This document shows positions 4,119-11,099 of a DNA stretch of 11,099 nucleotides, piece after piece. Made by a program: the position numbers and the translations under genes. The notes under the pieces were generated by a model. The model saw only the letters and a program-made list of their open reading frames with translations. It ran no database searches and was not told where the DNA came from. Source of the stretch: Candidatus Roizmanbacteria bacterium CG06_land_8_20_14_3_00_34_14 (GTDB lineage: Bacteria > Patescibacteriota > Microgenomatia > UBA1406 > GWC2-37-13); assembly GCA_002779665.1 (NCBI GenBank), contig PEVZ01000063.1, forward strand, positions 1-11,099, written 5' to 3'. Numbering within the stretch: position 1 is the stretch's first letter; the number at the start of each line of letters is the position of its first letter.

Positions 4119-4967
4119 ATGGACTTTAAACACTTTTCTCAAAACGGAAAGATCCTACCAATCGAAAAGGCAGTCATTCCGCTTTCTAATATTGAATATT
4201 CTTACGGTTACGGAGTTTATGAAAGTCTGCGGGTAAATAACGGAATGGTCTATTTCATTGATGATCATATTAAAAGATTGATAGAATCGGCAAAAATAAT
4301 CGGGATAAATCATCTGTTTGATGAAGATTTTGTAAAAAAAAGCATTTTGGATTTGGTTGCGGATTATCAAATAGAAACTTTTAATCTGAAAATACTTTTA
4401 ATCGGCGGAGCGACGAAAGAAAGAGCTGTCTTAAATATTTTTTGTCTTAATCCATTTTTTCCCGACCGTAAATTGTATCATCAGGGAGCAGAATTTATTA
4501 CTTACGAATATGAAAGGGCTTTTCCTCACGCAAAAACTTTAAATATGCTACAAAGTTATCTTGCCTACAAAAAAGCCAAGGAATCGGGGTCGTACGATGC
4601 TCTTTTGGTCAATCAGAATGGGTATGTCACTGAAGGAACAAGGACGAACTTTTTTTGTATAAAAAGAAAAACAATTTACACTCCTTTTAAAAAAGATATT
4701 TTGCTGGGAGTAATGAGAAAAGCAATGCTAAAAGTGGCATTAAGCAACGACTATAAAATAGTTGAAACTAATATAAAACTTGATGATGTTAAATCATATG
4801 ATGGTGCTTTTGTGACAAGTACTTCTTCAAAAATAATGCCGATAAAATCAATTAATGGAATAGTTTTTAATATTCCTGCTTCATTAAAAGAGTTGATGAG
4901 TTTGCTTAATAAATTTTTGGAAATAAATTTCCCATTTGCAATAAAAATTATTTCCTGTATAATTTAA
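4119..4967 (+). CDS. Class IV PLP-dependent aminotransferase (IlvE/Dat/PabC superfamily)
   Basis: A 282-residue fold-type IV PLP enzyme. Visible signatures are 'EYSYGYGVYESLRV' (26-39), an Arg in 'DDHIKRL' (R53), the PLP lysine K139 in 'HAKTLN', the cofactor-binding glutamate E172 in 'VTEGTRTNFF', and 'STSSKIMPI' (244-252). The superfamily includes branched-chain aminotransferase, D-amino-acid aminotransferase and aminodeoxychorismate lyase. The sequence alone does not decide. Its position before the chorismate operon makes aminodeoxychorismate lyase or an amino-acid transaminase attractive, but that is inference. It starts 4 nt after vapC without a Shine-Dalgarno. Its last codons double as the promoter of the aromatic operon, which may explain the divergent 'FPFAIKIISCII' tail. 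Confidence 0.8.
   Translation: MDFKHFSQNGKILPIEKAVIPLSNIEYSYGYGVYESLRVNNGMVYFIDDHIKRLIESAKIIGINHLFDEDFVKKSILDLVADYQIETFNLKILLIGGATKERAVLNIFCLNPFFPDRKLYHQGAEFITYEYERAFPHAKTLNMLQSYLAYKKAKESGSYDALLVNQNGYVTEGTRTNFFCIKRKTIYTPFKKDILLGVMRKAMLKVALSNDYKIVETNIKLDDVKSYDGAFVTSTSSKIMPIKSINGIVFNIPASLKELMSLLNKFLEINFPFAIKIISCII
4936..4963 (+). promoter_or_regulatory. Promoter of the aromatic (aro) operon
   Basis: A perfect TATAAT (4958-4963) is preceded after 16 bp by TTGCAA (4936-4941, 4 of 6 matches) and directly by TG. It lies inside the 3' end of the aminotransferase gene. Transcription would begin near 4970, 3 nt before the leader-peptide ATG. Confidence 0.7.
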
Positions 4968-4972
4968 TAACC

Positions 4973-5041
4973 ATGAAAATTATAGCGACTCAAAATTTTT
5001 ATTTTTACTTTGACCCACCTTGCGGTGGTTGTAATTGTTAA
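4973..5041 (+). CDS. Phe/Tyr-rich leader peptide of the aro operon
   Basis: A 22-codon ORF, too short for usual gene calling, starts 9 nt after a perfect -10 box. Codons 9-13 are TTT TAT TTT TAC TTT (Phe-Tyr-Phe-Tyr-Phe, 4997-5011), followed by Asp-Pro-Pro and a Cys/Gly-rich end. The peptide has no Trp. Its likely role is not the product but the act of translation: ribosomes stall at the five aromatic codons when charged Phe- or Tyr-tRNA is scarce. The codons overlap the first arm of a competing RNA structure, and a terminator follows 20 nt after the stop. AT-rich DNA readily encodes Phe and Tyr by chance, so the case rests on the combined arrangement. pheL of enterobacteria is a functional analogue. 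Confidence 0.78.
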   Translation: MKIIATQNFYFYFDPPCGGCNC

Positions 5042-5087
5042 AGTAAAAAACAATAAAACGACCCCCGCACAAGCGGGGTTTTTTTTT
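5002..5087 (+). promoter_or_regulatory. Ribosome-mediated transcription attenuator of the aro operon
   Basis: Three mutually exclusive pairings are visible. (1:2) 5002-5014 pairs with 5037-5049 (13 bp, one G-U) and stacks outside a 5-bp hairpin 5015-5019/5024-5028. (2:3) 5019-5030 pairs with 5060-5073: CUUG/CAAG, two bulged bases, then CGG/CCG, one mismatch and GGUU/GACC. (3:4) is the terminator stem 5063-5068/5073-5078. A ribosome stalled on the Phe/Tyr codons would occupy segment 1, free segment 2 to form 2:3 and prevent termination. A ribosome reaching the stop at 5039-5041 would cover segment 2 and let the terminator form. This is the logic of the trp and phe attenuators. Confidence 0.75.
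5061..5087 (+). terminator. Intrinsic terminator of the attenuator
   Basis: CCCCGC (5063-5068) and GCGGGG (5073-5078) form a 6-bp GC-rich stem with an ACAA loop, followed by nine T residues (5079-5087). It lies 15 nt before the DAHP synthase ATG and would also stop read-through from the aminotransferase gene. Confidence 0.88.
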
Positions 5088-5102
5088 GGATTTTAAAAAA
5101 AT

Positions 5103-5870
5103 ATGAAAACAAAACAAAAAATTATCATTGCCGGACCTTGCGCAGCCGAATCAGAAGAGCAGGTCATCAATTGTGCCAAAGAATTAAAAAAAAGAGATAT
5201 TAAAATCATGCGGGCCAGTCTTTGGAAGCCACGGACCAGTCCTGGGTTTGAGGGGGTGGGAGAAAAAGGAATTGACTGGTTTGCTCAAGTGACAAAAATG
5301 GGAATAACAGTTGCCACCGAAGTTTTATTTCCTGATCAAGTTACCCAAGTACTGAAGATTATCAAAAAAAAAGGTAATCCCAATAAAATTCTCTTTTGGA
5401 TTGGTTCGCGCAATCAGAATCATTATTTGCAAAGGGAAATCGCTCGAAAAATTAAAGATGAAGCACCAAAATCAGTCAAACTATTAATCAAAAACCAACC
5501 GTGGCGAGAGGAAAGGCATTGGTTGGGGATAGTTGACCATATTTTTAGTTCCGGTCTGGCTAAAGAAAGAATTATTCTCAATCATAGGGGATTTTCGCCG
5601 AAAGGAGAAAACCCTTTTGGACTTCGTAATTTACCTGATTTTGAAATGGCAATGAAAGTAAAAAACTTAACTGGATTGCCAATGATTATTGACCCTTCTC
5701 ATATTGGTGGAACTGTGGAAAATGTATTTTTAATCATGGAAAAAGCCAAACAATACAATTTTGATGGAGCAATGATTGAAGTTCATCCAGAACCAAAAAT
5801 AGCAAAGTCAGATGCAAAGCAACAGTTAACATTTAAGGAATTAGATAAAATTTTAAAAATAGTTAAATAA
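5103..5870 (+). CDS. aroF: 3-deoxy-7-phosphoheptulonate (DAHP) synthase
   Basis: Catalyses the first shikimate step: PEP plus erythrose-4-phosphate to DAHP. The 255-residue protein is a single type I (KDO8P-synthase-like) barrel. Motifs are 'GPCAAES' with metal ligand C13, 'KPRTS' (42-46), 'GSRNQN' (101-106), 'IKNQPWREERHW' near 129-140, 'HRGF' (161-164), 'DPSH' with H200, 'EVHPEP' with E226, and D237 in 'SDAKQQL'. The Cys, His, Glu and Asp metal ligands are all present. The 'KNQPW...HRGF' form, rather than 'KRG...ERG', resembles the DAHP synthase part of the bifunctional DAHP synthase/chorismate mutase known from Bacteroidetes, but no mutase domain or ACT-type regulatory domain is attached, so feedback inhibition by those means is unlikely. 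It follows the attenuator, lacks a Shine-Dalgarno, and is 1 nt from aroB. The gene symbol is by function. Confidence 0.93.
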   Translation: MKTKQKIIIAGPCAAESEEQVINCAKELKKRDIKIMRASLWKPRTSPGFEGVGEKGIDWFAQVTKMGITVATEVLFPDQVTQVLKIIKKKGNPNKILFWIGSRNQNHYLQREIARKIKDEAPKSVKLLIKNQPWREERHWLGIVDHIFSSGLAKERIILNHRGFSPKGENPFGLRNLPDFEMAMKVKNLTGLPMIIDPSHIGGTVENVFLIMEKAKQYNFDGAMIEVHPEPKIAKSDAKQQLTFKELDKILKIVK

Positions 5871-5871
5871 T

Positions 5872-6924
5872 ATGGGGAAAATAATAATTGGAAAAAAATT
5901 GTTAGAAAAAATCAATATTTTGTTTGATTTTTCAAGATTTTCAAAAATCGCCGTCTTAACTGACGAGAATATTCCTAAATCATTTATTGATAAAATCGAA
6001 AAATCATTCAATAAAAAACTTATAAAAATAATTATTTCGGCTGGAGAAAAAGAAAAGAACATTGAAACTGTCAAAAAAATTTGGGAAAAAATGTTTGATG
6101 AAGGTCTTGATCGTCGGTCACTACTAATTAATTTAGGTGGGGGAGTGGTTTGTGATATGGGTGGATTTGCCGCCGGAACATTTATGCGTGGTATTGATTT
6201 TTTAAATATTCCCACGACTTTACTTTCACAAGTTGATGCCGGGATTGGCGGAAAAACCGGAATTGATTTTATTGATATAAAAAACGGAATAGGGATTTTT
6301 AAAGAGCCGATTGGAACAGTGATAGATGTTGAGACGTTGAAAACTTTACCAAAAAGAGAATTTATTTCAGCATTTGGAGAAATTATCAAACATGGAGTTA
6401 TTTCCGGACGTGAATATTTTGACTTTGTTACTTCAAAAAAACCGAAAGAATTTGATCAAAACGAACTGATTAAAATAATTAAAGGGTCTGTGAATATCAA
6501 ATCAAATATTGTCAAAAAAGATCCGAAAGAGGAAGGACTTCGAAAAGTTCTTAATTTTAGCCACACGATCGGGCACGCAATTGAGTCCTTGAGTTGGAGG
6601 ACGGGCAAACCATTACTTCACGGCGAAGCGGTCGCGGTAGGTATGATCGTAGAGAGTCATTTAGCCTTTCTTTGCCATCCGATTCTGACCTCCGAGGTCA
6701 GAATAAGCTTGGCAGGACAAATTAAAAAAGCTGTCGTGAACGCAGGTTTGCCGACGAAAATTAGTAACATTAAATCGGAAGATATTTTGAAAAAAATTTT
6801 ATCTGACAAAAAAAATTTTTCAGGAAAAATCAATTGGAGTTTACCGAAAAGAATTGGAAGAGTTAACGTAAATGTTAAAGTTCCAAACGAATTAGTAGTT
6901 AAAGCAATTAAATCAATAATATGA
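5872..6924 (+). CDS. aroB: 3-dehydroquinate synthase
   Basis: Converts DAHP to 3-dehydroquinate with NAD and a divalent metal. The 350-residue length is normal. Motifs in order: 'NLGGGVVCDMGGF' (G89-G91, D95), 'IPTTLLSQVDAGIGGKTGID' (113-132), 'GEIIKHG' (E170, K173), 'HTIGHAIE' (H231, H235) and 'LLHGEAVAVGM' (H250). The metal ligands are therefore intact. The segment around 270-285 ('CHPILTSEVRISL') is encoded by a perfect 10-bp inverted repeat (6682-6704) and appears a few residues longer than usual. The gene starts 1 nt after the DAHP synthase stop and overlaps aroQ by ATGA, so it is translationally coupled within the operon. Confidence 0.96.
   Translation: MGKIIIGKKLLEKINILFDFSRFSKIAVLTDENIPKSFIDKIEKSFNKKLIKIIISAGEKEKNIETVKKIWEKMFDEGLDRRSLLINLGGGVVCDMGGFAAGTFMRGIDFLNIPTTLLSQVDAGIGGKTGIDFIDIKNGIGIFKEPIGTVIDVETLKTLPKREFISAFGEIIKHGVISGREYFDFVTSKKPKEFDQNELIKIIKGSVNIKSNIVKKDPKEEGLRKVLNFSHTIGHAIESLSWRTGKPLLHGEAVAVGMIVESHLAFLCHPILTSEVRISLAGQIKKAVVNAGLPTKISNIKSEDILKKILSDKKNFSGKINWSLPKRIGRVNVNVKVPNELVVKAIKSII
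6682..6704. repeat. Perfect 10-bp inverted repeat inside aroB
   Basis: ATTCTGACCT (6682-6691) and AGGTCAGAAT (6695-6704) flank a 3-nt centre, CCG. The arms are more GC-rich than the surrounding coding sequence. The repeat stays in frame and encodes 'ILTSEVRI'. It may be a small palindromic element that inserted in the gene and was tolerated, or a chance structure. Confidence 0.6.
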
Positions 6925-7364
6925 AAATTTTAGTGATAAATGGACCAAATTTGAACATATTGGGAAAAAGGGACCCACAAAAATACGGGACGGTTACTCT
7001 ATTGGAAATAAATGAATCGTTAAAAAAGATAGCCTGTGAATTAGATTGCCAATTGGAATTTTTTCAATCAAATCACGAAGGGGCAATTATTGATTTTTTA
7101 CAGAAAGAGTCATCGCAAGAGGCTGATGGAGTTTTGGTAAATCCTGGAGCTTTGATCCGTTATGCCTTTTGTTTTCGCCAGGCATTAGTCGATTTGGATA
7201 AACCGGTCATGGAAATTCATATGTCAGATATTAATAAAACCGGAGTCAATAAAAAAATTAACGTTTTAGAGGATATTAGAATAGGTCAAATAACCGGATT
7301 AAAAGAAGGAAGTTATTTTGAAGGATTAAAGCAATTAATAAATTTTATTAAAAATAGAGTATGA
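6921..7364 (+). CDS. aroQ: Type II 3-dehydroquinate dehydratase, divergent
   Basis: Dehydrates 3-dehydroquinate to 3-dehydroshikimate; type II enzymes are small dodecamers. The 147-residue protein has 'NGPNLNILGKRDP' (7-19) with R17, the catalytic Tyr22 in 'KYG', 'FFQSNHEGAIIDF' (47-59), 'VNPGAL' with N74, and 'EIHMS' with H100 and S102. Two usually conserved substrate-contact features are changed: the His after the NPGA motif is Arg80 ('ALIRYAF'), and the 'RExFR' stretch after the EVHLSN motif is replaced by 'INKTGVNKK'. The enzyme may be active with altered substrate contacts, since the Arg/Tyr catalytic pair is kept. It overlaps aroB and aroA by 4 nt on each side. Confidence 0.9.
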   Translation: MKILVINGPNLNILGKRDPQKYGTVTLLEINESLKKIACELDCQLEFFQSNHEGAIIDFLQKESSQEADGVLVNPGALIRYAFCFRQALVDLDKPVMEIHMSDINKTGVNKKINVLEDIRIGQITGLKEGSYFEGLKQLINFIKNRV

Positions 7365-8662
7365 GATTTTTAAAAGTCAAAAAAAGTCAAAATTTAACTG
7401 GCACAATTTCCATGCCAGCCTCAAAAACCCATTCATTTCGGGCGTTGGTTTTGGGCGCATTAGCTGATGGAACTTCAGTAATCAGAGAGCCAAAATTGAG
7501 TCCCGATTGGGATGAAGGGGTCAAAGCGATGAAAATGTACGGTGCAAAAATCGAAGAAATAGAAAAAAATGTTTTTCAGATTAAAGGTGTGGCAGGAAAG
7601 CTACAAACACCGGAAGATGTGATTAATGTTAATAATTCCGGAACGATGTTGGCTTTTATTGTTGGGATCGCTGCCGCTTGCGAAGGATGGTCGATCATTA
7701 CCGGTGATGAATCAATCCGTACTTTAAGGAAAGTATCAAAGAATTTATTTAAGCCTTTTGAAGAGCTGGGTGTCAAAATTATTTCCACCAAAAATGATGG
7801 AATGGCGCCTTTGATAATAAGGGGCAAAGTCAATGGAGGAGTCGCTCATATGGATGGCACAGGTTGTCAGCCGGTTTTCAGCGTTCTCATCGCTTCGGCG
7901 CTGTCTGAAAAACCGGTTGAAATCTTTGTTGATAACCCTGGAGAAACGGCTTATATAGATTTGTTGCTATTTTGGTTTGATAAAGTTGGACTAAAGTACA
8001 AAAATGACCAACACAAACATTATTCTTTTCCTGGTAATAAGCCACCCAAGTCGTTTGATGCTAAAATTCCTTTTGAGTGGTCGGCACAAGGCTACCCGCT
8101 ATTGTCAGCGATCATCACTGAGAATTCGGAAATAAAAGTTGAAGGAATGGATTTGAAAGATCCATACGGAGATAAACAAGTAATTGATATTTTGCAAAAA
8201 ATGGGAGCGCACTTAACCATTGAAGGAAATTGTTTGACAGCCCATTCGAGTCAATTACATGGAATAGAAATTGATATGAATAAGTTACCTGATCAAGTGC
8301 CGACGATTGCCGTAGCTGCTTGTTTTGCCCGTGGAAAAACGGTTATTAAAAATGCTTTGACAGCCCGTTGGAAAGAGTGTGACCGGATAACCGCCGTCTG
8401 TACAGAATTAAAAAAAATGGGAGCAAAAATAACGGAAAAAGAAGATGGACTAATTATTCATCAGGACGGTAGTTGGAAATTAAAAGGAGCCAAGGTTAAT
8501 GGTTATTATGATCATCGAATGGTGATGGTTTTTGCCGTCGCCGGTTTGGCCAGTGAAGGAGAAACGATTATTTCCGACGCCCAAATGGTAGAGAAATCAT
8601 TTGATAGTTATATTCCGGAAATGAAAAGAGCCGGAGCAAATTATGAATTGATTGAAAAATAA
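7361..8662 (+). CDS. aroA: 3-phosphoshikimate 1-carboxyvinyltransferase (EPSP synthase), divergent
   Basis: Joins shikimate-3-phosphate and PEP to give EPSP. The 433-residue length fits the two-domain family. Seen: 'MPASKTHSFRAL' (K22, R27) in place of the classical PGDKSxSHR form, 'NNSGTM' (91-96), 'GDESI' (115-119), 'DMNKLPDQ' (305-312, D311), 'ARWKECDR' (335-342), 'YYDHRMVMVFAVAGL' (382-396) and 'VEKSF' (410-414). Differences from the common form: the 'RPM' after GDxS is 'LRK', and the usual SSQ of the phosphate-binding loop is 'GCQ' (168-170). The C-terminal half is much more canonical. It overlaps aroQ by 4 nt and precedes aroK by 2 nt. I am sure of the family; glyphosate sensitivity cannot be predicted. 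Confidence 0.93.
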   Translation: MRFLKVKKSQNLTGTISMPASKTHSFRALVLGALADGTSVIREPKLSPDWDEGVKAMKMYGAKIEEIEKNVFQIKGVAGKLQTPEDVINVNNSGTMLAFIVGIAAACEGWSIITGDESIRTLRKVSKNLFKPFEELGVKIISTKNDGMAPLIIRGKVNGGVAHMDGTGCQPVFSVLIASALSEKPVEIFVDNPGETAYIDLLLFWFDKVGLKYKNDQHKHYSFPGNKPPKSFDAKIPFEWSAQGYPLLSAIITENSEIKVEGMDLKDPYGDKQVIDILQKMGAHLTIEGNCLTAHSSQLHGIEIDMNKLPDQVPTIAVAACFARGKTVIKNALTARWKECDRITAVCTELKKMGAKITEKEDGLIIHQDGSWKLKGAKVNGYYDHRMVMVFAVAGLASEGETIISDAQMVEKSFDSYIPEMKRAGANYELIEK

Positions 8663-8664
8663 AT

Positions 8665-9231
8665 ATGAAAAACATTATTTTAATCGGTATGAAAGCCTGT
8701 GGAAAAAGTACGGTCGGTAAAATTTTGGCACAAAAATTGGGAATAGATTTTGTTGAACTTGATATCGAAATCGAGAAAGCTCATTTATTGTCCAAGAAAG
8801 AAAGTTTAAACTTTCGGGAAATATTTAAAAAACATGGATCGGTTTATTTCCGTCAGTTAGAATCAAAAGTTTTAAAAGATATTTTCAAAGAAAAAAAGAT
8901 AAAAGAGTTTGTTTTAAGCTGTGGTGGAGGAACTCCGCTTAACGAAAATAATCAAGAAACTATCAAAAGCATAGGCGAAGTAATATTTTTGGATGCTGAT
9001 AAAAAAGTTTTATTGCCGCGAATTATAAAACACGGAATCCCGGCGTTTTTTCCATTCCAAAATGATCCGGAAAAATCACTTGACGAACTTTTAGAAAAAA
9101 GAAAACCTATTTATGAAAAAGTAGCTGACAAAACAATTTCTTTTACAAAAGAAACTCCCCAACAATTGATGGAGAGGATTATAAATTTTTTTTCGCGTCA
9201 TTCCCGTGAAGACGGGAATCCAGACGATTAA
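8665..9231 (+). CDS. aroK: Shikimate kinase with repeat-derived C-terminal tail
   Basis: Phosphorylates shikimate with ATP. The 188-residue protein shows the P-loop 'GMKACGKST' (8-16), D33 in 'ELDIEIE', R63 in 'YFRQLE', the 'CGGGTPL' loop (86-92) and 'EKRKPIYEKVAD' (144-155) with the adenine-side Arg. Family members generally end near residue 170-175. Here the last 11-12 residues, 'SRHSREDGNPDD', are encoded by a palindromic repeat (9197-9226), a tail known from many unrelated proteins where such repeats invade gene ends. It is probably a neutral extension. The gene starts 2 nt after aroA and ends 4 nt before aroE. Confidence 0.94.
   Translation: MKNIILIGMKACGKSTVGKILAQKLGIDFVELDIEIEKAHLLSKKESLNFREIFKKHGSVYFRQLESKVLKDIFKEKKIKEFVLSCGGGTPLNENNQETIKSIGEVIFLDADKKVLLPRIIKHGIPAFFPFQNDPEKSLDELLEKRKPIYEKVADKTISFTKETPQQLMERIINFFSRHSREDGNPDD
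9197..9226 (+). repeat. GTCATTCCCG-type palindromic repeat at the aroK/aroE junction
   Basis: ATTCCCGT (9200-9207), loop GAAG and ACGGGAAT (9212-9219) form a perfect 8-bp stem-loop, flanked by GTC and CCAGAC. It supplies the last codons of aroK and lies 10 nt before the aroE start. It is the cleanest of four related copies in the window. In mRNA the hairpin could affect stability or aroE translation. Confidence 0.8.
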
Positions 9232-9235
9232 CATT

Positions 9236-10054
9236 ATGAAAATAAATGGAGAAACAAAATTGATCGGTTTTTTCGGATCAACTTTTAGAACAAGCAAAAT
9301 GTATGTAATGTACAATTCAGTTTTTGAAAATTTAAGACTTAATTATGTCTATGTTCCTTTTGTGGTTGAAGATGTAAAAAAAGGAGTCGAGGCGATGAGA
9401 AATCTTGGTATTCATGCCGTTGGAGTAACCATTCCATATAAAGTGAGTATTGTTAAGTATCTGGATGAACTTGATGCGGACGCAAAAAAAATCGGTGCGG
9501 TTAATGCGGTAATTAATGTTAATGGAAAATTAATTGGCAGTAATACCGACGGCCATGGAGGAGTAAGAGCTCTTAAAGAAAAAACTGTTATTAAAGGAAA
9601 AAAAGTGATTTTACTTGGTGCTGGTGGAGCAGCCAGAGCATTAGCTTTTGCTGTCAAAGATGAAAGTGGAGAGTTGACAATATTAAATCGAACCGTCGAT
9701 GAAGCTGAACAGTTAGCAAAAGCAGTCGGTTGTAAGTTTGATGGATTGGAAAAAATATTAGATTTAATACCAACTACGAATATTTTAATAAATAGCACGT
9801 CTGTTGGTATGGCGCCTGAAATCAATCAATCTCTTGTTAACGAAAAACTTTTGCATAAAGGATTAACTGTAATGGATATTGTCAGTAATCCAAGAGAAAC
9901 AAAACTATTAAGAGAAGCTAAGAAAGCTGGCTGTCAGATTGTTTTTGCTGATAGGATGTTGCTTTGGCAAGGCGTCTTGAAGTTTGAACTGTATACTGGA
10001 ACTAAACCACCAATAAAAATTATGGAAAAACAATTACAAATTACTAATCTATAA
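9236..10054 (+). CDS. aroE: Shikimate dehydrogenase, divergent shikimate-binding motif
   Basis: Reduces 3-dehydroshikimate to shikimate, usually with NADPH. From the ATG at 9236 it is 272 residues. Present: 'GVTIPYK' with catalytic K69, 'AVNAV' with N90, 'SNTDGHGG' with D105, the dinucleotide loop 'GAGGAARA' (128-135), 'NRT' (151-153), 'STSVGM' (187-192) and 'MLLWQG' with Q245. The classical substrate motif 'SxSPxxHN' is 'SKMYVMYN' (20-27), so one serine, the Pro and the His are lost. A GTG at 9206 would add ten residues, but they come from the palindromic repeat and overlap aroK, so ATG is preferred. The NRT form of the cofactor loop fits NADP use. Confidence 0.92.
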   Translation: MKINGETKLIGFFGSTFRTSKMYVMYNSVFENLRLNYVYVPFVVEDVKKGVEAMRNLGIHAVGVTIPYKVSIVKYLDELDADAKKIGAVNAVINVNGKLIGSNTDGHGGVRALKEKTVIKGKKVILLGAGGAARALAFAVKDESGELTILNRTVDEAEQLAKAVGCKFDGLEKILDLIPTTNILINSTSVGMAPEINQSLVNEKLLHKGLTVMDIVSNPRETKLLREAKKAGCQIVFADRMLLWQGVLKFELYTGTKPPIKIMEKQLQITNL

Positions 10055-10133: not shown

Positions 10134-11099
10134 ATGGCGGGCAATACATTCGGAAAATTGTTTCAAGTGACGACTTTCGGCGAATCCCATGGCGGGGCAG
10201 TTGGTTGTGTGGTTGACGGTTGTCCTCCGGGGTTAGAAATTTCAACAGAAGATATTCAAAAGGATCTGGATCGAAGGAAACCCGGGCAAAGCAAAATTAC
10301 AAGCCCTCGTCAGGAAGAGGACAAAATCATAATTCTATCAGGTGTATTTGAAGGAAAGACAACTGGTACTCCGATTATGATGATGGCAAAAAATAAAAAT
10401 GCCAGACCGGAAGACTATGAAAAGTTAAAAAACATTTTTCGACCGGGCCATGCTGATTTTACTTTCCAAAAAAAATTTGGGATCCGTGACTGGCGGGGAA
10501 GCGGTCGTTCTTCAGCTAGAGAAACCTTAGCACGGGTGGCTGCTGGTGCAATAGCCAAAAAATTCTTGAACGAAAAATTAGAAATGGAATTTATTGCATC
10601 TATCGAGGAAGTTGCCGGAGTAAAAATAAAATCGAATGAGGAAACGATAAAAATAATTGAAACCGCAAAAAAAGATGGGGATTCGGTTGGTGGGGTTATC
10701 AAAGGAGTGATTAAAAACGTTCCAATCGGTCTGGGTGAGCCGGTTTTTGATAAGTTATCCGCCGATTTAGGGAAAGCAATGTTGTCAATTCCGGCCGTTA
10801 AGGGATTTGAGATTGGATCAGGATTTGCAGGAGCTAAAATGAGAGGGAGCGAGCATAACGATTCGTTCTTTACTGATGAAAAAGGCAGAATTAGAACTAA
10901 AACGAATTTTTCCGGGGGAATTCAGGGTGGGATTTCCAACGGAGAAGATATTTATTTCCGGGTGGCTTTTAAACCGGTGTCAACGATTAGAAAAGAACAG
11001 GATACGGTTAATTTAAAAGGTCAAAATGTGAAGATAGAAGCAACAGGAAGGCACGATCCTTGTGTTTTACCAAGAGCGGTTCCGATCATAGAGGCAATG
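10134..11099 (+). CDS. aroC: Chorismate synthase, 3' end beyond the window
   Basis: Converts EPSP to chorismate using reduced FMN, the last common step of aromatic synthesis. The ORF starts at ATG 10134 and is open for 322 codons to the window edge. Motifs are the N-terminal '[16 protein letters not shown]' (H19), '[17 protein letters not shown]' (49-65), '[10 protein letters not shown]' near 101-110, '[14 protein letters not shown]' near 118-131, '[20 protein letters not shown]' near 262-281, and '[18 protein letters not shown]' at the window edge. Only about the last 30-60 residues are missing. It looks fully canonical, unlike the AroQ, AroA and AroE of the same operon. It lies 79 nt after aroE, probably in the same transcript. 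Confidence 0.96.

Follow-up and report, generated by a model that had tools for sequence, protein, structure and literature searches.

Positions 4935 to 5087 of the stretch of Candidatus Roizmanbacteria DNA analyzed here (the window, 11,099 nucleotides in full) very probably constitute a ribosome-mediated attenuator of transcription through which charged tRNA-Phe and tRNA-Tyr would control the shikimate operon downstream, as judged from the sequence and from modeled folding. The window corresponds to contig C69 of a genome of 785 kb (72 contigs) with an estimated completeness of 82.6%, and NCBI places Candidatus Roizmanbacteria in the Microgenomates within the Patescibacteria. In the window we found the features by which leader-peptide attenuators are recognized: a run of control codons, a terminator, mutually exclusive 2:3 and 1:2 pairings, and a switch, predicted by folding, that depends on the position of the ribosome. 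All elements of the attenuator and of the operon behind it lie on the + strand.

The putative promoter (4935–4963) consists of a –35-like hexamer, TTTGCA or TTGCAA, and a perfect TATAAT (4958–4963) at a spacing of 17 or 16 bases. The usual distance from a –10 box to the start site would place the beginning of transcription at about 4970, roughly 3 bases 5′ of the ATG of a predicted leader open reading frame (ORF), with 9 bases separating the –10 box from that ATG. The leader ORF (MKIIATQNFYFYFDPPCGGCNC, 22 codons plus TAA, 4973–5041) contains the control codons Phe9-Tyr10-Phe11-Tyr12-Phe13 (FYFYF, 4997–5011). Folds gave a 1:2 (protector) helix at 5002–5049, with 13 outer bp (5002–5014/5037–5049) and 5 inner bp (5015–5019/5024–5028), or 12 + 5 bp when a slightly different stretch was folded. 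Segment 2 (GCGGUGGUUGU, 5022–5032) is complementary, with one mismatch, to segment 3 (ACGACCCCCGC, 5058–5068). With a ribosome at Phe11, the fold contained the corresponding 2:3 antiterminator (5021–5069, formed by 5021–5025/5065–5069 and 5027–5032/5058–5063), extended by an inner hairpin (5034–5039/5049–5054). The intrinsic terminator (3:4, 5063–5078) has a 6-bp stem (CCCCGC ACAA GCGGGG) and is followed by nine Ts (5079–5087) lying 15 bases ahead of the ATG of 3-deoxy-7-phosphoheptulonate (DAHP) synthase at 5103. The sequence-only reading of this DNA had listed the promoter, the 22-codon FYFYF ORF, the helices and the terminator with its nine Ts; all of its coordinates and counts proved right, and its 13 + 5 bp helix was reproduced in our folds. 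A thermodynamic fold of the leader region, which it had proposed as a check, was also favorable: the stretch 4966–5102 folded better than 200 of 200 dinucleotide shuffles (z –3.4).

These elements suggest the following mechanism. RNA polymerase would begin about 3 bases 5′ of the leader ATG. With ample Phe and Tyr, a ribosome translating the leader would pass FYFYF and reach the stop codon (5039–5041), masking segment 2, so that the terminator would form and transcription would stop in the T run, leaving a short terminated RNA. When the charged tRNAs are scarce, the ribosome would stall on FYFYF and cover segment 1; segment 2 would then pair with segment 3, and polymerase would read through into DAHP synthase and the rest of the operon. 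If the leader is not translated, the 1:2 helix would fold and transcription would terminate.

To relate the element to other genomes, we picked relatives by a protein search with DAHP synthase, disregarding the leader, which hit 33 of 116 genomes, counting that of the window. Thirty DAHP-synthase loci were returned, one of which was the window's; the 29 others, minus three cut too near the gene (L008, L009, and L031), left 26 loci with 1.3 to 1.5 kb of upstream DNA each. We scanned the same strand upstream for short ORFs in which at least four of six codons are aromatic and behind which a hairpin and a T run follow. An aromatic leader with a terminator was found 5′ of DAHP synthase in 22 of the 26 loci, which is the conservation that the sequence-only reading had proposed to look for, while the identical scan found this combination on 0 of 26 opposite strands and in 0 of 520 dinucleotide shuffles. 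The leaders of L004 and L005 are identical, and thus the 26 loci are not all independent. The aromatic runs of the relatives include FYFYF, YFWYFF (L011), and FWFSYFY (L016). At two loci (L012:1364-1469:+ and L013:2349-2464:-), the aromatic codons belong to the tail (FSYFKFDPGG, ending at the stop) of a prephenate-dehydrogenase gene that adjoins DAHP synthase upstream; in these, the gene tail may double as the attenuator leader, although folding predicted no switch in L012 and a switch at only one stall site in L013.

The same controls bear on the simplest alternative, in which the hairpin merely terminates the upstream aminotransferase-like gene, the short ORF occurs by chance, and DAHP synthase has its own promoter. 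The element does sit directly 3′ of that upstream ORF, whose stop ends at 4967, and these genomes have many T-run hairpins (no leader was present at 13 of 30 loci returned by a second covariance model, described below). The recurrence of leader plus terminator in 22 of 26 loci against none in the controls speaks against this alternative, as do the matching of segments 2 and 3 within elements (below) and a promoter scan of the window that found no site between the terminator and DAHP synthase. We regard it as extremely improbable, and a chance ORF or plain terminator was rejected as a candidate on the shuffle and opposite-strand controls.

A larger collection came from a covariance model (R1) built on 12 elements with 5 base pairs. 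It matched 124 of 185 genomes at E ≤ 0.05, its weak matches including plain terminators. An aromatic leader was present in 28 of the 30 R1 loci returned (9 of the 30 being training elements or an identical copy), in 13 of 20 further stretches by scan, plus one (L076) by eye, and in 13 of another 40, where that of L138 lies away from its model match. Of 80 scanned records, 69 elements remained after removal of an overlapping ORF (L027 #22) and of 10 records that were not aromatic. We compared the pairing energy of each element's own segment partners with that of partners permuted among elements. For the 2:3 pairing, the own mean was –17.54 kcal/mol versus –13.43 kcal/mol (sd 0.31) for permuted partners, and 0 of 20,000 permutations reached the own value. 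The result was the same for 50 dissimilar elements (0/20,000) and for the 32 elements with the terminator core CCCCGC (0/20,000), and nearly so for the 17 with the core CCCGCC (8/20,000). Segments 2 and 3 thus appear to have evolved to pair within each element. The 2:3 energy of the window (–18.1) ranked third and fourth of 69 in the two swap directions. The 1:2 pairing showed a smaller effect (–11.75 versus –10.47, 0/20,000), with the window only 20th. Helix covariation, which the sequence-only reading had wanted examined, is therefore present as element-specific pairing of both helices. When consensus folds were computed, the first 12 elements and the seven second-type elements gave only the terminator, and the five first-type elements gave the terminator and an inner hairpin without the 1:2 helix.

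A terminator and antiterminator alone do not reveal what decides between them, and the decision could in principle fall to an RNA-binding protein, a small-molecule riboswitch, or a tRNA-binding T-box. We consider this highly improbable. The part that recurs is the codon run, and the codons track the target (Phe with PheS; Ile, Leu, and Val (ILV) with class IV aminotransferases; His with HisS). The window has no Rfam family at threshold, and Phe_leader (RF01859) in particular did not match it at the gathering score. In six of the eight relatives searched, the Rfam matches, all sub-threshold, are to leader-peptide attenuator families: Phe_leader in L004, L006, L010, L011, and L017 (E 0.007–0.88, 27.7–37.2 bits versus a gathering score of 55) and Thr_leader in L007. 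A known T-box or riboswitch was rejected as a candidate on the Rfam searches, which gave none at the gathering score in the window and no T-box in the eight relatives at E up to 1.

We modeled the switch in the 69 elements as equilibrium folding with an assumed ribosome footprint (12 bases shielded). When the first aromatic codon occupied the A site, the predicted probability of the terminator, P(terminator), was below 0.5 in 59 of 69 elements (median 0.005), compared with 2.3% of 2,070 controls in which the middle segment was shuffled (median 0.97). With the ribosome at the leader stop, P(terminator) exceeded 0.5 in 69 of 69. In the window, P(terminator) was 0.03, 0.60, 0.21, 0.69, and 0.86 for stalling at Phe9, Tyr10, Phe11, Tyr12, and Phe13, respectively, and 0.99 both at the stop and for the untranslated leader; with a footprint of 8 it stayed low through Tyr12. 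The claim of the sequence-only reading that the stop codon is placed so that a ribosome there masks segment 2 agrees with these values, its attenuation model of the trp/phe type is supported, and the direction of the switch that it predicted is right. TnaC exemplifies a leader peptide that itself arrests the ribosome upon binding a free amino acid, and by analogy the window peptide could act in this way. The leader peptides vary widely outside the aromatic run, which is not expected of an arrest peptide, and we hold this option to be exceedingly unlikely.

Several results weigh against attenuation by a stalled ribosome, or against the strength of the tests that favor it. The switch model ignores kinetics, and its outcome in the window varies with stall site and footprint: later stall sites weaken the switch, and with a footprint of 16, P(terminator) is at least 0.62 at all five codons, so that no stall site favors antitermination. 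Across the 69 elements, antitermination was not favored at the first aromatic codon in 10, was favored at the last aromatic codon (P(terminator) < 0.5) in only 21, and the untranslated leader favored the terminator (>0.5) in only 34. Some of the 69 elements came from a search with a model that had been trained on 12 of the set, and alternative starts were permitted for leaders only, which makes the sets neither fully independent nor symmetric. Finally, the scan found no aromatic leader in 4 of the 26 DAHP-synthase loci (L015, L022, L026, and L028), and in two others (L018 and L025) the leader lies about 1 kb upstream, ahead of a transaldolase and a PfkB-cluster gene.

Which amino acids the attenuator would sense bears on the extent of the operon. 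The genome of the window encodes TrpA on another contig, and neither scan nor inspection of about 330 upstream bases revealed a Trp leader ahead of its trp operon. Neither prephenate dehydratase nor prephenate dehydrogenase was found in this 82.6% complete genome, although TrpA was, which tells against a Phe/Tyr switch; pheA and tyrA may be truly absent from it. Their absence first seemed a mismatch, but in two relatives with tandem FYFYF leaders these genes stand shortly 3′ of aroC, where the window contig ends. In G004, AroC is followed by chorismate mutase, a class I aminotransferase, a TyrA-PheA fusion, and then TyrS; in G035, it is followed by chorismate mutase, an aminotransferase, and separate TyrA and PheA ORFs. 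That the leader carries Phe and Tyr but no Trp codons is in keeping with an operon that extends to TyrA and PheA. (The dehydroquinate dehydratase of G035 is of type I, unlike that of the window, and none was seen among the ORFs of at least 120 residues in G004.) More broadly, prephenate dehydratase was found in 6 of 12 relatives tested and prephenate dehydrogenase in 6 of 13 genomes, the window's included. By analogy with the two relatives, the regulated unit is likely the whole Phe/Tyr route, the window contig presumably ending before its last part. The sequence-only reading had the leader control seven chorismate steps: the genes are all present, but the operon may be longer.

A variant of the proposed switch would use the same RNA to sense, in effect, Phe alone, with the Tyr codons as passengers or ribosome spacers. 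Antitermination in the window is predicted to be strongest at Phe9, Phe-only runs stand ahead of PheS genes in relatives L085 and L132, and in Corynebacterium glutamicum the AroR operon, with its Phe-Tyr-Phe leader, answers Phe limitation and not Tyr availability (excerpt of PMC11802643). On the other side, many relatives have alternating Phe and Tyr codons ahead of DAHP synthase, and two have an operon that makes both amino acids, followed in one case by TyrS. We view sensing of Phe alone as possible but the less probable option.

The near absence of a 5′ untranslated region (UTR) recurs in the relatives. Among leaders first in line, a –10 box (at least 5/6) ends 5 to 14 bases before the ATG in 50 of 61, compared with 7.2% of 7,972 control ATGs of the same loci, and a –35 box is present as well in 37 of 61 versus 2.2%; alternative in-frame starts were permitted for leaders and not for control ATGs, an asymmetry that also counts against the contrast. 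As read from these sequences, most first leaders probably start almost at the promoter. The scan found two aromatic leaders within 450 bases at seven loci (L004, L010, L017, L027, L047, L066, and L077), and by the same promoter measure none of the seven second leaders has its own promoter. The overlapping ORF L027 #22 had caused L027 #23 to be miscounted as an eighth second leader, the only one with a promoter. An earlier scan also found two leaders in L006, where the T run of the first is weak. In the window there is one attenuator and no tandem copy.

The genes behind the 69 elements were annotated via one representative per similarity cluster, with tandem pairs before one gene counted twice. 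For 45 of 69 elements the downstream gene fits aromatic metabolism or supply: DAHP synthase in 30, PheS in 3, prephenate dehydrogenase, prephenate dehydratase, class I/II aminotransferase, ADTH-synthase-type aldolase, and transaldolase in 2 each, and TyrRS and a beta-eliminating lyase in 1 each. The remainder comprises PfkB (4), GNAT (1), PrgI (1), 16 genes without a Pfam family or not scanned, and 2 elements with no gene left on the stretch. Four proteins behind Phe- or Tyr-rich leaders (L047:172-1074:-, L056:311-1483:-, L078:1546-2994:+, and L099:719-2410:+) have no Pfam match at E 0.01; the leaders suggest a link between these proteins and aromatic amino acids. Six of the 69 elements were excluded from alignment A4. 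A model of 63 elements without base pairs (R2), used on a phylum-wide sample, matched 139 of 379 genomes. Among 30 returned loci scored for content, 15 had an aromatic leader, 2 an ILV-rich one, and 13 none; 8 of the 15 aromatic leaders lie outside the class of the window.

The operon itself comprises genes for all seven chorismate enzymes 3′ of the attenuator and on its strand, as the sequence-only reading had stated and family searches now match. DAHP synthase (5103–5870), 80% identical to its closest named matches, which are from Candidatus Roizmanbacteria, hit TIGR01361 clearly (7e-41) but under the curated cut-off. It is followed by aroB (3-dehydroquinate synthase, 5872–6924, TIGR01357 above cut-off), aroQ (type II 3-dehydroquinate dehydratase, 6921–7364, NF003807 barely above cut-off and TIGR01088 under it), aroA (5-enolpyruvylshikimate-3-phosphate (EPSP) synthase, 7361–8662, TIGR01356 above cut-off), aroK (shikimate kinase, 8665–9231, best NF010552 at 7e-34, clear but under the curated cut-off), aroE (shikimate dehydrogenase, 9236–10,054, TIGR00507 above cut-off, with an ATG start chosen in an ORF open from GTG 9206), and aroC (chorismate synthase, 10,134–11,099, truncated by the contig end). 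The gaps among the first six genes are –4 to +4 bases, and 79 bases precede aroC. Directly 5′ of the leader lies a class IV aminotransferase-like ORF (4119–4967, + strand), and the attenuator promoter sits within its 3′ end. Elsewhere in the window, two adjacent-gene pairs (window:211-877 and window:3455-4114) resemble an antitoxin with a PIN-domain toxin, judging by eye from the ORF translations.

Leaders of other composition also turned up. ILV-rich leader ORFs with terminators precede class IV aminotransferases (L075:1856-1975:+ and L112:557-680:+), pyruvate kinase (L109:7134-7248:+), and a gene without a Pfam family (L138:3949-4056:-); we treat these as candidate branched-chain attenuators. 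In the window's own genome, a histidine leader (MKINALKNLHHHPA, L174:1474-1569:+, contig G000:C7) with a terminator precedes a CntK-like gene (histidine racemase, below cut-off) and HisS. Leader-peptide attenuation looks common in Patescibacteria, and it may extend to branched-chain and histidine genes. We think it fairly probable that such attenuation is a general mode of amino-acid control in this phylum, with aromatic, branched-chain, and histidine leaders before biosynthetic, synthetase, and precursor-supply genes phylum-wide, many of them near-leaderless and some tandem or formed by gene tails, and with leader codons that predict the roles of genes of unknown function.

Of a separate kind is a dispersed RNA element with two hairpins, first noticed between tandem attenuators and located outside the window (loci L175–L204, e.g. 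L176:1501-1617:-, L190:1501-1608:+, and L196:1501-1619:+). It matched 63 of 116 genomes at E ≤ 0.01, with up to 13 copies per genome and 5 in the window's own, and sits 3′ of attenuator terminators and, at several loci, of tRNA 3′ CCA ends. The fold z scores of four copies range from –3.7 to –8.7, comparison of five copies revealed compensating changes in 9 of 22 pairs, and Rfam yielded no match at these elements. It may be a structured RNA or a small mobile repeat.

Most Patescibacteria have not been cultured, and the phylum is considered poor in regulators. A small genome could plausibly control a pathway by a cis-acting switch for which the ribosome suffices. The leader codons would also give functional hints for genes outside Pfam families, and tandem and near-leaderless leaders raise questions about how translation and transcription are coupled. 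By its computed signs, the window element appears to be a classical attenuator, and we consider the broader Patescibacteria pattern more interesting than this single case.

If the survey holds, it extends leader-peptide attenuation to a phylum for which we found no report in the open-licence literature (searched as Patescibacteria, Microgenomates, Parcubacteria, and candidate phyla radiation), although a report elsewhere is possible; the leader peptides treated in an excerpt of PMC7143001, on Patescibacteria/Microgenomates, are bacteriocin precursors. A paper of 2010 stated that leader-peptide systems were known from Proteobacteria and Actinobacteria alone, and itself added bacilli (excerpt of PMC2965389). 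The systems described beyond Proteobacteria, in Actinobacteria (trp, leuS, and ilvB) and Bacillus (hisS/hisZ), likewise rely on leader peptides but concern other amino acids and other phyla (excerpts of PMC1262725 and PMC2965389). In Escherichia coli, pheA (pheL) and pheST are controlled by leader-peptide attenuation answering to Phe-tRNA (excerpt of PMC11802643), a likeness echoed by the sub-threshold RF01859 matches in five of eight relatives; there, however, the target is a branch gene or a synthetase in another phylum, whereas in the window it is the common pathway. The transcript of Sinorhizobium meliloti trpL begins at the ATG of the leader ORF (excerpt of PMC7298713) and is thus leaderless, similar to the roughly 3-base 5′ UTR predicted for the window, but its excerpted description concerns Trp codons, trpE(G), and an alphaproteobacterium. 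Two leader-ORF attenuators in one leader, as in the tandem relatives, are described for Salmonella mgtCBR (excerpt of PMC3641672), where they respond to different signals, ATP and proline, while here both are aromatic. The closest system is AroR of C. glutamicum, a Phe-Tyr-Phe leader before the DAHP synthase (aroF) operon at which ribosome stalling raises transcription; the window shares with it, as far as the excerpt of PMC11802643 describes AroR, a Phe/Tyr leader ORF before a DAHP-synthase operon. Because AroR is already known, this kind of switch is not new, and mixed Phe/Tyr control is not as unusual as the sequence-only reading had supposed. Likened by description, the two differ in phylum, in the window's run of FYFYF and its operon with all seven chorismate genes, and in the tandem copies carried by some relatives of the window.

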